From Candidatus Gastranaerophilales bacterium (lineage in GTDB: Bacteria > Cyanobacteriota > Vampirovibrionia > Gastranaerophilales > Gastranaerophilaceae): a DNA stretch of 32,084 nucleotides. The DNA is taken from positions 1 through 32,084 of the forward strand of contig CALVEO010000023.1 of assembly GCA_944326615.1 (NCBI GenBank). The letters run 5' to 3'. A program made the translations under genes and the position numbers. Positions 1 to 29,283 of this stretch are shown one piece after another. The notes under the pieces are model-generated. The model made no database searches. It worked only from the letters and a program-made list of their open reading frames with translations, and was not told the DNA's origin. How positions within the stretch are numbered: position 1 is the stretch's first letter; every line of letters starts with the position of its first letter.

Positions 1-144
1 CATTCGACGTAGTAATCTCATTAATATTATATAAATTATGAGATTGCGACGCTCCATTCTGTCGCTCGCAATGACAGTTATTAGCTAGCGGATTGGATTT
101 ACGAGAACATGCTCCCTCCCTCGGGGGAGGGCTGGGGAGAGGGT
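1..144. repeat. 144-bp direct repeat, copy 1 (copy 2 at 18541-18684)
   Basis: Aligned base by base with 18541-18684 I see three substitutions and no indel. The block contains the palindrome CTCCCTCCCTCGGGGGAGGG, a motif seen again in locus P3 (28241-28270). Both copies lie in the N-terminal coding part of a mosaic prepilin-type locus, on the same strand and in the same frame. Confidence 0.9.
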
Positions 145-423
145 AAATCTTTACGGTACGTCCTACTGCCTTACTGCCATTGTATCTTAGTATCCGAATA
201 AAAACCTGCCATATAATGACAACATATTCAAAAAGAGGAAGAAATTGAATATTAAGACCTGTCATCGCGCACATGTTGCGCGATATTTTTAGGACAAATT
301 CCTGATTGCGCAATAAATGCGCAATGACATTACTGGAAACAACTTGACTTACAGCCCTTCTGTCAGCTAAAAGTGCCCCCCCCCCGATGTCTCGGGTAAA
401 ACAAATTTAAATAATCTTTTCAT
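1..423 (-). CDS. Mosaic prepilin-type locus P1, 5' part only, phase-OFF as sequenced
   Basis: Partial gene running off the left edge. An ATG at 423 has a Shine-Dalgarno GGAG at 434-431 and a good promoter further upstream. The start codes for MKRLFKFVLPETS and then enters a run of ten G in the sense strand (376-385). With ten G the frame stops after 18 codons (CAC TTT TAG). With eleven G I read it codon by codon to position 1 and found no stop. The downstream part matches the equivalent part of the locus at 27659 and, at 1-144, the locus at 17432-18981, in the same reading frame (shared peptide pieces PPPREGAC and NNCHCERQNGASQSHN). By analogy a prepilin-type domain should follow beyond the window; that is inference. 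Alternative: a dead gene start joined to intergenic repeats. Confidence 0.55.
261..328. repeat. 68-bp composite palindromic repeat, copy 1
   Basis: Two adjacent hairpins (arms ATTGCGC/GCGCAAT and ATCGCGC/GCGCGAT) bracketed by GTCAT and ATGAC. A homologous 68-bp copy lies at 27742-27809 in locus P3. The element is read in the same frame in both loci if the poly-G tract holds eleven residues. Confidence 0.75.
376..385 (-). repeat. Poly-G tract (G10 in sense strand) of locus P1
   Basis: Ten consecutive C on the + strand, ten G in the sense strand of P1, beginning 38 bases after the A of the ATG. It lies where unique sequence (upstream) meets repeat sequence (downstream). Plus one base restores the long frame. 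Homopolymers of this length are typical slipped-strand mutation sites in contingency genes. Confidence 0.8.
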
Positions 424-462
424 AATCTTACTCCTTTATTTATTATATTATTTACAATTATT

Positions 463-8913: not shown

Positions 8914-9002
8914 TTGCCATTTTGTCATGCTGAATTTATTTCAGCATCTTAAAGCAGTTCCTGGAGCAAGTTCAGGATGACTTTAAAACGACAAAATGGC
9001 AA
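8914..9002. repeat. 89-bp MITE-like palindromic repeat between fhaC-like gene and bioD
   Basis: Perfect 13-bp terminal inverted repeats TTGCCATTTTGTC (8914-8926) and GACAAAATGGCAA (8990-9002) enclose two hairpins: ATGCTGAA/TTCAGCAT (8927-8934/8940-8947) and TCCTG/CAGGA (8959-8963/8973-8977). The inner parts match the dispersed repeat GTCATGCTGAAC..TTCAGCATCTT also found at 18223-18250 and 28450-28480. It carries no gene. Confidence 0.8.
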
Positions 9003-17431: not shown

Positions 17432-18981
17432 TTATTTGCATCTGGTTTTCGTGTTCCAATCCAAATCATCACAGTGCAGATAATCCATGTTTTCATTTTG
17501 CAGCACCCATGCAGTACATCCGCGCCCGTTATCTTTATTTGATGTCCCTATATTACACAATTGTTTGAAATATGTCGGAGTTTGAGTCGGACTACCCTGC
17601 GGGACAATTTTGGCGGGTGAAAAGTAAATTTGAAAATAAAATGTATCTTTTCCCAAAGTACATTTACCTTTATTCATACATTTATTAAGTGAAACATAAA
17701 TATCCATCATTCCGTTTTCTATCCATCCGGAAGAAATCACTGTACCATCAGCTAAAACTATATTTGGTATGGCTCGATTTGTAGATATAGTATTTCTAAA
17801 GGTTCCATCTAATGAGTAAGAATCATATTCATAACGAATATATTGGTTAGCTTTTCCACCATCAACTGATTTCATATTTTCTGCAAGGTAATTGAAAACA
17901 GTGTATGCACTTGTATAATCTGTAATAGCATTTCCCTCATCATCGTCTCCTATATGTGTCTTGCTAAGACTCCAGCTTTCAGCATCCCCGTATTTGTTGA
18001 TAGCCATTAAATAAGCCTGCTGCATTGTAGAATACGCTTTTTTTAATTGTGCAACAGTTTGTTTTTCTCTATGATTTGCAATCAGAGATGGCATAGTCAT
18101 TGCCGCGACAACCCCTATAATTCCTAAGGTGATCAACACCTCCGCTAATGTAAACGCGCAGCGTTTACAAGGTGAATAAGAGAATAAGTGAATAGGTGAA
18201 TAAGTTCGTTTCGAGGAATTAGTGTCATGCTGAACTTGTTTCAGCATCTTATAATTACTTACTTCCTCTCCTGTGGGAGAGGGTTGGGGTGAGGGCTGAT
18301 TATTATATATAATTTGATTGTAGTTACTTATTCCTTCTCCCCTATGCGGCAGCGTAGCCACTGCACCCGACACCTGTGTTTTGCATGAATTTTCTATGTC
18401 ATTACGAGGGAACGTAGCCGTTCCATCCACCACTTGTGTCTTGCATAAACTTTCTATGTCATTGCGAGGGAACGTAGCCGTTCCATCCACCACTTGTGTC
18501 TTGCATAAACTTTCTATGTCATTGCGAGGAGAATGCGAAGCATTCGACGTAGTAATCTCATTAATATTACATAAATTATGAGATTGCGACGCTCCATTCT
18601 GTCGCTCGCAATGACAGTTATTAGCTTGCGGATTGGATTTACGAGAACATGCTCCCTCCCTCGGGGGAGGGCAGGGGAGAGGGTCATTATCAGAAGACCG
18701 GAGAGTCAGAGGGCAGGAAGGCAGGCTGGTTACAGAAGTTATTTTAGTGCGCAGCACAGATAATAGCTTGACCTCCTGACATCCGATCCACCGTCTGCTA
18801 TTTTGAAAACATCCAGTATCAACCCCTAATTTTTGAATAACAAACTTCTGAAACAAGTTCAGAATGACAGTTATATTAAGATCCCCTAAATAAAATTTAA
18901 AACCTGAAAACGCCCTAATGTCGCGGGTTAAGCGGCTATGCTTGCGGGGGGGGGGCAGTTCAAAGCTTCTCTAATTGTCAT
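17432..18981 (-). CDS. Mosaic prepilin-type locus P2, phase-OFF as sequenced
   Basis: The ATG at 18981 has AAGGAGG six bases upstream and a good promoter. Its frame (MTIREALNC) enters ten C (sense strand, 18946-18955) and stops after 17 codons. One extra C joins it to a frame open to 17432. Without the slip the first standard start in that frame is a TTG at 18856 with no Shine-Dalgarno. The open frame holds roughly 250 residues of repeat-derived sequence, including a 20-residue tandem repeat. A prepilin-type segment follows (CAFTLAEVLITLGIIGVVAA). Then comes a pseudopilin-like body of about 220 residues with paired Cys and the C-terminus CTAWVLQNENMDYLHC. An ATG at 18247 would give a more usual 32-residue leader with a weak Shine-Dalgarno. 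Pilin-like function is inferred from the leader motif. A long extension before the cleavage site is highly unusual. Confidence 0.6.
18361..18530 (-). repeat. 60-bp tandem repeat, nearly three copies, inside locus P2
   Basis: Units begin at 18361 (diverged), 18421 and 18481 (partial, losing identity after 18529). The last two are identical where they overlap. Each unit contains the palindrome GGAACGTAGCCGTTCC except at its ends. Sixty bases is 20 codons, so copy number changes keep the frame; the peptide repeat reads NDIESLCKTQVVDGTATFPR. Confidence 0.9.
18541..18684. repeat. 144-bp direct repeat, copy 2 (copy 1 at 1-144)
   Basis: Differs from 1-144 at three positions. Read in the same frame in both loci. 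Contains hairpins around GCGACGCTCC and the CTCCCTCCCTCGGGGGAGGG palindrome. Confidence 0.9.
18946..18955 (-). repeat. Poly-C tract (C10 in sense strand) of locus P2
   Basis: Ten G on the + strand, so ten C in the coding strand, 26 bases after the A of the ATG. Opposite polarity to the tracts of P1 and P3, coding Pro instead of Gly, but the same length and the same plus-one requirement. Confidence 0.8.
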
Positions 18982-19005
18982 TTTTGTCCTCCTTACTTTT
19001 TCTTT

Positions 19006-23096: not shown

Positions 23097-23393
23097 TAGC
23101 TTCAGGCTTGCACCCTAGCCCTCCCCGTTTGGGGAGGGGGAACGTAGCCGTTCCATCCACCAAATAGGTTTTGCATAGAACAATTACTTATATTCTTTAT
23201 CATCTTCTTAATTAGGTGTGGAGCGGCACACTTTATTACAATGACAGAACAAGTTCATGCTCAGGGTATCGGGAGGAGCGGCACGCTCCCCCTCTTTCTT
23301 TGTGAGAGGGAGCTAAACCGACTTCCTCACTTATTCACCTATTATCTGTCAGGTTGAGATGGCAAAGAAACTTCGTTAAAAAATCATTCAACA
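23097..23393. repeat. Repeat-rich spacer with mosaic modules
   Basis: No gene. It holds pieces of the dispersed repeats. CCTCCCCGTTTGGGGAGG is at 23121-23138 and GGGAACGTAGCCGTTCCATC at 23139-23158, a match to the tandem unit of P2. GGAGCGGCACGCTCC is at 23275-23289, inverted relative to the spacer at 25393-25475. A CACTTATTCACCTATT piece (23327-23342) equals the leader-coding module of P2 and P3. It appears to be the decayed 5' region of the prepilin remnant that follows. Confidence 0.75.
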
Positions 23394-25392: not shown

Positions 25393-25497
25393 GAGCGTGC
25401 CGCTCGACCCGTCACTTAGATGTTGCGTAAAACTTTTTCAACCTAAACTAAAGAAGGAGCGTGCCGCTCGACCTGCGACTTAGAGGTTGAGTAAAAT
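25393..25497. repeat. Imperfect direct repeat with GAGC-GCTC hairpins
   Basis: GAGCGTGCCGCTCGACC followed by a similar tail (CACTTAGATGTTG and GACTTAGAGGTTG) occurs at 25394-25424 and 25456-25487. The GAGCGTGCCGCTC hairpin is the inverse of GAGCGGCACGCTC at 23276-23288. The second copy overlaps the GH38 stop codon, so the last codons of that gene lie in repeat sequence. Confidence 0.75.
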
Positions 25498-27608: not shown

Positions 27609-27625
27609 AACATATATGTTATAAT
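27609..27625 (+). promoter_or_regulatory. Promoter region of locus P3 with palindrome
   Basis: TATAAT (27620-27625) overlaps the end of the perfect palindrome AACATATATGTT (27609-27620). TTAACATA also occurs at 27576-27583. The -35 (near 27597) is poor, so an activator or other factor may bind the TTAACATA sites. AAAGGAG (27644-27650) and the ATG at 27659 follow. Confidence 0.45.
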
Positions 27626-27658
27626 TATAAATGTAAAAAAAATAAAGGAGAGTTAATT

Positions 27659-29283
27659 ATGTTCAAACAAAAAACAAGAGCTTCGGGGGGGGGGCACTTT
27701 TAGCTAACGGAAGGGCTGTAAGTCAAGTTGTTTCCAGTAATGTCATTGCGCATTTATTGCGCAATCTTGGATTTGTCATAAAAAGATCGCGCAACAAGTA
27801 CGCGATGACAGTTCTTAATATTCAATCCCTCGTCTTTTTAGGAGAGGGTGCCAGTATATGTCAGGTATTTATTCAGATAATAGGATACTATGGCAGTAAG
27901 GCAGTAGGACGTATCGTAAAAATTTTCCCTCTCTTTGGAGAGGAATTTATCGGAGGTCAGGAACTCCGGCAGGTAAGAGATCAGGCTGGTTTAGAAGGTA
28001 GGAAGGTAAGAAGATATGAGGGTAGGCTGTTTAAGTTATTAAAAGGCTTATTTTTTGTTCCCCTCGCCCCCTTGGGGAGAGGGTTAGGGAGAGGGGCTAA
28101 CCAGGAAGATAAGTTATATAGCCGCCGGATGATCGGATGTCAAGATATCAAGCTGTTATCGGTGCTACGCACTAAAATAACTTCTTTATTCAACCTGCCT
28201 TCCTGCCCTCTGAACTTCTGTTCTTCTGATAATGACCCTCTCCCCTGCCCTCCCCCGAGGGAGGGGGCATGTGGCGGCTGGAGTGGTCCGCTTTCTTGTA
28301 ATGACAAAACAAGTTCAAGCAAGACTCAGGTGTTGGCTGGAACGGCTACGTTCCATCTCTGTTCTTCTGATTGTTACCCACCCCAGCCCTCCCTAATCAG
28401 GGAGGTAGCGCGTAAAAAGCTCCTGAAACACAGATGTCAATCTGACATTCTTAAGCCCCTGAAACAAGTTCAGGATGACCTGTTTAACTTACTGAAATCG
28501 ACTTATTCACCTATTCACTTATTTACTTATTCACTTCGTAAAAAAGCTGCCTTTACACTCGCCGAAGGTGCTACGCACGTAGTCCACTTTGACAAAATCC
28601 GTCGAGCCGCTTTCACTCTGGCGGAGGTTTTGATTACCTTAGGAATTATTGGCGTGGTGGCTGCAATGACTATGCCTGTTTTGGTTTCTAATTACAGAAA
28701 GCAGGTTGTAGAGACAAGATTGCAAAAATTTTACTCAACTGTCAATCAGGCGATTAAAATGTCAGAAGTAGATAATGGTGATAAGATGTTTTGGACGGCA
28801 GCTGATTCTGATGATTTTTTTAATAAATATTTAAAAAAATATTTGAAATATTTAAAATATGAAAATAAACGTGTAGGTACCTCAAATGACTGGAGATTAA
28901 TTTATTTAACCGATGGAAGTGCTTTCTTATTTGATTTATACGGAGTTTGGGATGACGATGGGGAGCAGACAGTTAAAACAAACGGAGGACACTTTATTTT
29001 CTGTCCTTCTGCCAAAGATTGTGAAAATGGTTCTGAGCGTAATTTATATGGAAGAAAGCAATTTGTATTTGCTTTTTGGCCTAATGAAGATGACTCTAAA
29101 TTTGGTTACCATAAAGGACGTGGTGTCGAACCTTATATGGCACACTGGGATGGTGATGAAGAAAAATTATATACTTCTTCAAAATATGGCTGTAATGAAG
29201 AATCAGGCAATAGTTTATACTGTACTGCGGTAATACAGCACAACGGCTGGAAAATTCCTAAAAATTATCCGTATAGGCTCTAA
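27659..29283 (+). CDS. Mosaic prepilin-type locus P3, phase-OFF as sequenced
   Basis: The ATG at 27659 has AAAGGAG eight bases upstream and codes MFKQKTRAS, then G10 (27685-27694) and a stop after 14 codons. One extra G joins it to the frame open to 29283 (about 541 codons). In the unslipped frame the first start is a TTG at 27757 with no Shine-Dalgarno. No ATG, GTG or TTG lies in frame close before the prepilin motif; the nearest ATG is 28129. About 300 repeat-derived residues precede a doubled motif, AFTLAEGATHV then AFTLAEVLITLGIIGVVAA. A pseudopilin-like body of about 220 residues follows, ending IQHNGWKIPKNYPYRL. Repeat modules match P1 (27695-27930) and P2 (28120-28270) in the same frame. 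Alternative: a decayed gene with start and body separated by repeats. Confidence 0.6.
27685..27694 (+). repeat. Poly-G tract (G10) of locus P3
   Basis: Ten G, 26 bases after the A of the ATG. From the tract onward (CACTTTTAGCT...) the sequence is homologous to P1; upstream of it the two loci are unrelated. Confidence 0.85.
27742..27809. repeat. 68-bp composite palindromic repeat, copy 2
   Basis: Same architecture and length as 261-328, in the equivalent place of locus P3: GTCAT, hairpin TTGCGC/GCGCAA, hairpin TCGCGC/CGCGA, ATGAC. Confidence 0.75.

Follow-up and report, generated by a model that had tools for sequence, protein, structure and literature searches.

The window analysed here, 32,084 nt of a Candidatus Gastranaerophilales genome, carries three tracts of ten G or C bases, each a short way behind a start codon, and each placing that start codon exactly one base out of frame with the long open reading frame downstream. 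This shared offset is the main point, and it had been missed in the initial annotation. We think it likely that the tract, lying in the leader peptide of a type IV prepilin-like gene, works as a translational ON/OFF frame switch. Under the proposed mechanism, ribosomes would start at a Shine-Dalgarno sequence (SD) and ATG lying 6–15 codons upstream of the tract. With 10 Gs or Cs, they would leave the tract in the wrong frame and meet a stop within a few codons (gene OFF); one additional base (11 in total) would join the start to the open leader and the pilin (gene ON). Tract length would most likely change by slipped-strand replication, and each cell may express a small, random subset of the ~57 genes of this type, with each gene presumably ON at low frequency. 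In addition, recombination exchanges pilin cassettes and parts of the switches between sites, and interspersed repeats have been inserted between the tract and the cleavage site, in a peptide that the prepilin peptidase would be expected to remove. The arrangement as a whole may function in surface variation.

The components of the three genes—P1, P2 and P3—are listed in Table 1. The three tracts were confirmed as initially described, including the opposite polarity of the P2 tract relative to those of P1 and P3, as were the separate start peptides, each of which is preceded by a good SD. The prepilin body of P1 lies beyond the contig end.

Table 1. Components of the three tract-bearing prepilin genes in the window.
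Feature	Position	Strand	Remark
P1 Shine-Dalgarno AAGGAG	431..436	-	read from sequence
P1 start peptide MKRLFKFVLPET(S)	386..423 (ATG 421-423)	-	first 23 nt of the frame exactly copied at G000:C3:57721, tract present
P1 G10 tract (C10 on + strand)	376..385	-	out of frame at 10, in frame at 11
P1 stop TAG directly behind tract, 10-base frame	367..369	-	class-wide excess of such stops
P1 repeat-derived leader insert	1..375	-	open in 11-base frame; runs off window
P2 Shine-Dalgarno AGGAGG	18988..18993	-	
P2 start peptide MTIREALN(C)	18956..18981 (ATG 18979-18981)	-	
P2 tract, C10 in sense (G10 on + strand)	18946..18955	-	in frame at 11
P2 stop TAA, 10-base frame	18928..18930	-	
P2 leader insert, mosaic of interspersed repeats	18167..18945	-	open in pilin frame
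P2 prepilin: N_methyl motif (18095-18166) and mature body	17432..18166	-	
P3 presumed -10 element TATAAT	27620..27625	+	region conserved at P3 site in pilin-carrying relatives
P3 Shine-Dalgarno AAGGAG	27645..27650	+	
P3 start peptide MFKQKTRA(S)	27659..27684	+	
P3 G10 tract	27685..27694	+	in frame at 11 (541 aa ORF)
P3 stop TAG, 10-base frame	27701..27703	+	
P3 leader insert, repeats	27695..28599	+	open in pilin frame
P3 prepilin: N_methyl motif (28600-28671) and mature body, PF20318 (DUF6613)	28600..29283	+	
P3 predicted peptide spanning the tract			ASGGGALLANGR

P2 and P3 both score over the cut-off for PF07963 and for TIGR02532, and both carry the N-terminal methylation/cleavage motif with Glu5 and a hydrophobic helix. 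Weak Pfam matches of P2 to APOBEC2, SNAD4 and GH123, all below their cut-offs, were dismissed. The short leader of type IV prepilins is seen in relatives that lack an insert; in P2 and P3, 276–318 residues precede the prepilin motif when the genes are in frame. The FTLAE prepilin motif of P3 is doubled at a distance of 20 codons (window positions 28540-28620; AAFTLAEGATHVVHFDKIRRAAFTLAEV), as it is at loci L022 and L050; at L032 it occurs three times. The cleavage site is duplicated by a 60-nt in-frame repeat.

Runs of at least 6 G or C bases occur in the window only at the three tracts. Chance origin was rejected: for runs of at least 8, 9 matches were observed versus a shuffle mean of 0.08. 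The source genome (1.96 Mb in 78 contigs, 98% complete) contains 74 tracts of at least 8 Gs, in a background of 35% GC (window value), and 65 of the 76 tracts inspected there are exactly 10 bases long. In 59 places an SD and a start codon open a short start peptide that leads into a tract, and some 57 loci show the complete order of SD, ATG, 6–15 codons, G10 or C10, and prepilin. The genome has 108 genes with a prepilin (N_methyl) motif and one match to the prepilin peptidase family PF01478 over the cut-off. Relatives were gathered through a neighbouring protein and are nearly all Candidatus Gastranaerophilales/Melainabacteria MAGs, in which tract lengths are consensus values. The pattern of SD, ATG and G tract is present in 35 of 58 genomes (29 of the 42 good ones), mostly of the same genus, at 0–85 sites per genome; a reversed-pattern control gave 0–4. 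Pattern searches of the relatives also recovered G and C forms without an insert. Some loci of the source genome likewise lack the repeat insert, and among these L009 exemplifies the basic design (MKRLLTLKR-RGGG-QFLAFSLG/FTLAEV).

Nearly all other tract loci of the source genome share the offset of P1, P2 and P3: at 10 bases a stop is met within a few codons, and at 11 an ORF opens—mostly of 250–550 aa—that reaches the prepilin motif. The relation was scored in 187 prepilin tract loci from the source genome and its Gastranaerophilales relatives. The tract is exactly 10 bases long in 162 of these, and a closed frame requires 11 (or 8) bases in 171, 10 in 12, and 9 in 4. As assembled, 157 of the 187 are one base short and 15 are in frame. 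Lengths range from 9 to 14, with 25 loci differing from 10, and the direction of the offset is nearly constant; a length of 9 is rare, though it would be equally OFF in most loci. The same -1 offset is seen in all three codon phases and in both G and C polarity, and must therefore have been kept or restored while the tract came to be read in every frame. Given this geometry, pilins would turn ON by gain of a base rather than by loss, such that shrinkage of a tract by one would never fix the ON state.

Direct evidence that tract length changes in DNA comes from two loci of a single genome, L248 and L249, which share a 197-nt block at 97.5% identity in which the tract is 11 bases long (ON) in one copy and 10 (OFF) in the other. 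As in known contingency loci, then, a mononucleotide tract lies in the 5' part of a reading frame and its length sets the frame, and that length varies among loci and among copies. Genes other than pilins also carry such tracts, and these are in frame at 10 (glycosyltransferase 2, PMT_2) or at 11 (FkbM methyltransferase). Since other tract genes are in frame at 10, it looks as if 10 is the general tract length in this genome and the OFF placement is what is peculiar to pilins.

Had the tracts been mis-assembled, the 10-base frame would be under no selection. Synonymous recodings of the in-frame peptide behind the tract served as the null (400 recodings, 186 loci). A stop in the 10-base frame occurs in 180 of the 186 loci, versus 96±6.5 expected (maximum 116), at a median of codon 2 behind the tract (range, codons 0–8); stops in the 9-base frame number 119, versus 119 expected. 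Shared ancestry inflates the stop counts, and the 9-base frame, which has the same ancestry, shows no excess. A redundancy-reduced set gives the same picture (129 of 135 loci, versus 72±4.8), again exceeding all 300 recodings. When loci are divided by phase and polarity, the excess lies above all 300 recodings in four of the six classes (three G and the main C class), and the two small C classes trend the same way but do not surpass all recodings. The leucine codon CTA is prominent just behind the tract (it accounts for 5% of leucines in the pilin bodies), because CTA followed by A or G gives a stop in the default frame. To judge by these codons, the OFF state is real and selected, and is no assembly error, given that the excess is found in the 10-base frame and not in the 9-base frame. 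In the C-class phase-1 loci, stops in the 9-base frame fall below the codon null (14 versus 20.8±1.8).

The ON frame, too, is real. Of 44 inserts of 60–305 codons located between the tract and the cleavage motif, 43 are open in the pilin frame and 0 in the other frames; across 7083 insert codons, 5 stops fall in the body frame versus 443 and 622 in the others. Among the bodies of loci assembled OFF, the median dN/dS is 0.16 (39 pairs), which shows purifying selection on them. On the strength of the open frames and this ratio, we rejected the possibility that the loci are a family of pseudogenes. The leader inserts are built as mosaics from interspersed repeats; of the 46 copies of the P1 insert, 31 immediately precede a prepilin, and by coordinates about 8 further copies adjoin tracts near contig ends. 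The long insert is probably derived, because the spacer in relatives is mostly 7–11 codons. Other interspersed and palindromic repeats occur between genes of the window (23134-23177, 25393-25496 and 8914-9002), and some of them are related to pieces of the leader inserts.

The tract had initially been proposed as a sharp junction between unique and repeated DNA, where different gene starts are joined to a movable repeat/prepilin cassette. For P1 and P3 the description is accurate: the two are alike over 251 nt (87% identity; 137-387 and 27683-27933), starting 2 nt before the tract, and are unrelated before that. It also holds for G-class loci more generally. Among 51 such pairs in the genome with at least 80% similarity over the 40 nt that follow the tract, identity reaches 1.00 and 0.98 in the two bases just before it, ~0.5–0.6 in the start peptide and ~0.35 (background) further upstream. 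It fails for the C class, to which P2 belongs, where homology continues through the start peptide to the SD (0.95, 0.83 and 0.89 per 10 nt). Nor is the upstream DNA unique, since the starts of both P1 and P2 recur elsewhere. The expected tract-free versions of the short N-termini were not encountered: a search of the source genome with the P1 and P2 starts found none, and the copies that do exist (that of P1 in Table 1, and 33 of 34 nt of the P2 start at C1:63050) have the tract.

Swapping of downstream cassettes between relatives, the other part of that proposal, is borne out. The P3 site lies divergent to an alpha-mannosidase gene; its conserved promoter region is followed by one of three pilin body families (W, L167 and L173; L163 and L166; L169, L171 and L174); other relatives have no pilin there. 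Loci L163 and L167 carry unrelated pilins between flanks that match at 92% identity, for 358 nt on one side and 4.8 kb on the other. Elsewhere, L026 and L051 have the same body (97%), preceded by a G switch in the former and a C switch in the latter. Two decayed switches were also noted at the P3 site: in L163 (5926) the promoter is fused to the tract and the SD is lost, and in L160 (3925) a 16-base tract precedes a remnant.

Could joining cassettes be the tract's main function? Homology that starts at the tract in G-class pairs and in L022/L126, together with the cassette swaps behind a fixed promoter at the P3 site, would fit such a role. Breakpoints are found in other places too: before the start codon (the L248/L249 block runs from 12 nt before it to ~145 nt behind the tract), near the ATG (L171/L173), ~20 nt behind the tract (L166/L167), and at the cleavage site, 9 nt before FTLAE (L026/L051). 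A junction role, moreover, predicts neither the -1 offset nor the selected stop, and we consider it highly improbable as the main function. A dedicated insertion end of a mobile element was rejected as well; the end is constant in G-class pairs only, and is contradicted by the C class and by the swaps that break elsewhere. The tract is one of several breakpoints, and its own job is most likely the setting of the reading frame. A related proposal treats the out-of-frame genes as a silent archive, that is, as non-expressed recombination donors for a few expressed pilins, like gonococcal pilS. Most loci are indeed OFF, and bodies do move between sites. Each scored copy nonetheless retains an SD, ATG and start peptide of its own in a constant frame relation, together with a stop tuned to the 10-base frame, for which a donor lacking a promoter would have no use; an archive thus seems very unlikely.

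The observations that sit least comfortably with a frame switch are the very uniform tract length, the nearly invariable +1 direction (only 4 loci are in frame at 9), and the presence of MutS1 in almost every genome searched, which would make slippage less frequent. (Missing mismatch repair was, by the same finding, rejected as a source of tract instability.) The first two of these also fit programmed recoding. According to this alternative, the DNA stays at 10 and either RNA polymerase adds a base or ribosomes shift by -1, yielding pilin at a low level. Length 10 and offset -1 are nearly invariant across three phases and two polarities, the restoring change is that expected of +1 nt transcript slippage or a -1 ribosomal shift, and a stop near the slippery site is common in recoding cassettes. 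Set against this, ~13% of loci have a tract length other than 10, and in 15 the DNA itself is in frame; the near-identical L248/L249 block differs (11 versus 10) in the DNA of one genome; other kinds of gene carry in-frame G10 or C10; the distance to the stop varies, unlike that of a fixed stimulator; and C10 and G10 would need to recode alike. We therefore see recoding as possible and rather unlikely, and are similarly doubtful of its consequence: that dozens of pilins per genome are expressed only via programmed slippage, by RNA polymerase or ribosome, on invariant G10/C10 tracts. Least credible is an assembly artefact in which short-read assembly shortened true 11-base tracts, so that the genes would in fact be in frame. 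In its favour, the named relatives are almost all MAGs, and many of the tracts are located at contig ends. Yet synonymous codons favour an immediate stop in the 10-base frame and none in the 9-base frame, tract genes of other kinds are in frame at 10, and the assemblies also contain prepilin tracts of 11–14.

The DNA-level frame switch that we favour resembles several known systems in part. In Neisseria, pilE/pilS gene conversion varies the pilin and pilC is phase-variable; there, too, exchange of pilin sequence coexists with homopolymer frame switching of pilus genes. The two neisserial devices act on different genes and the donors are silent, whereas in the present genes every copy comes with a start and a switch of its own, the latter located within the prepilin leader. 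Rickettsia palindromic elements are likewise interspersed repeats inserted in frame in coding genes; the repeats described here differ in that they sit between the tract and the prepilin cleavage site, in a part expected to be removed. Contingency loci of Campylobacter jejuni comprise mixed gene types, with ON and OFF states mixed, unlike the one gene family, one length and one offset found here. The likeness to C. jejuni lies in the many G/C tracts in an AT-rich genome, mostly within reading frames and in surface-related genes (strain NCTC11168 has 29 polyG/polyC tracts of at least 7; PMC4965091). A close parallel is seen in Bifidobacterium breve UCC2003, also a gut commensal, where the sortase-dependent pilus loci bbr_0113 and bbr_1889 contain a G11/G10 tract subject to replication slippage; in the reference genome these loci are OFF, their default state being out of frame, and a change in tract length restores the frame (PMC9187656). 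As here, a tract of 10–11 Gs splits the start/signal part from the pilin body. B. breve has two such loci, encoding sortase pili in a Gram-positive cell. The one genome examined here has ~57 tract loci, type IV prepilin-like and of either polarity (G or C), with a stop under selection behind the tract, inserted repeats and exchange of cassettes. Among the papers searched, none links Gastranaerophilales to phase variation, and likewise none links Melainabacteria to slippage or phase variation.

If the switch operates as proposed, a common uncultured gut lineage related to Cyanobacteria would possess what is, to our knowledge, one of the largest single-family sets of frame-switched genes, and the mix of pilins on display could differ from cell to cell. 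A single gene would combine frame switching with the exchange of cassettes, two devices that usually occur separately. Annotation pipelines would break on such genes, which resemble truncated or mis-started ORFs. The synonymous-codon test of the OFF frame, by which an OFF state is shown to be real without recourse to reads, could be extended to other phase-variable genomes.

Several further tract genes were noted along the way. The long G/C tracts outside the pilins, each assembled in frame, are those of L060 (2538; glycosyltransferase 2), L064 (2179; PMT_2-type membrane protein) and of L199 (2666; FkbM methyltransferase). Locus L035 (1499-2616; G000:C15:35093) encodes a prepilin-type protein with YadA_head repeats after the N_methyl motif and an in-frame G10. 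Finally, the small window gene at 1236-1739 is without a tract; among its relatives, one has a C10 in frame (L080, 2569) and another has 11 bases, out of frame (L071, 476).
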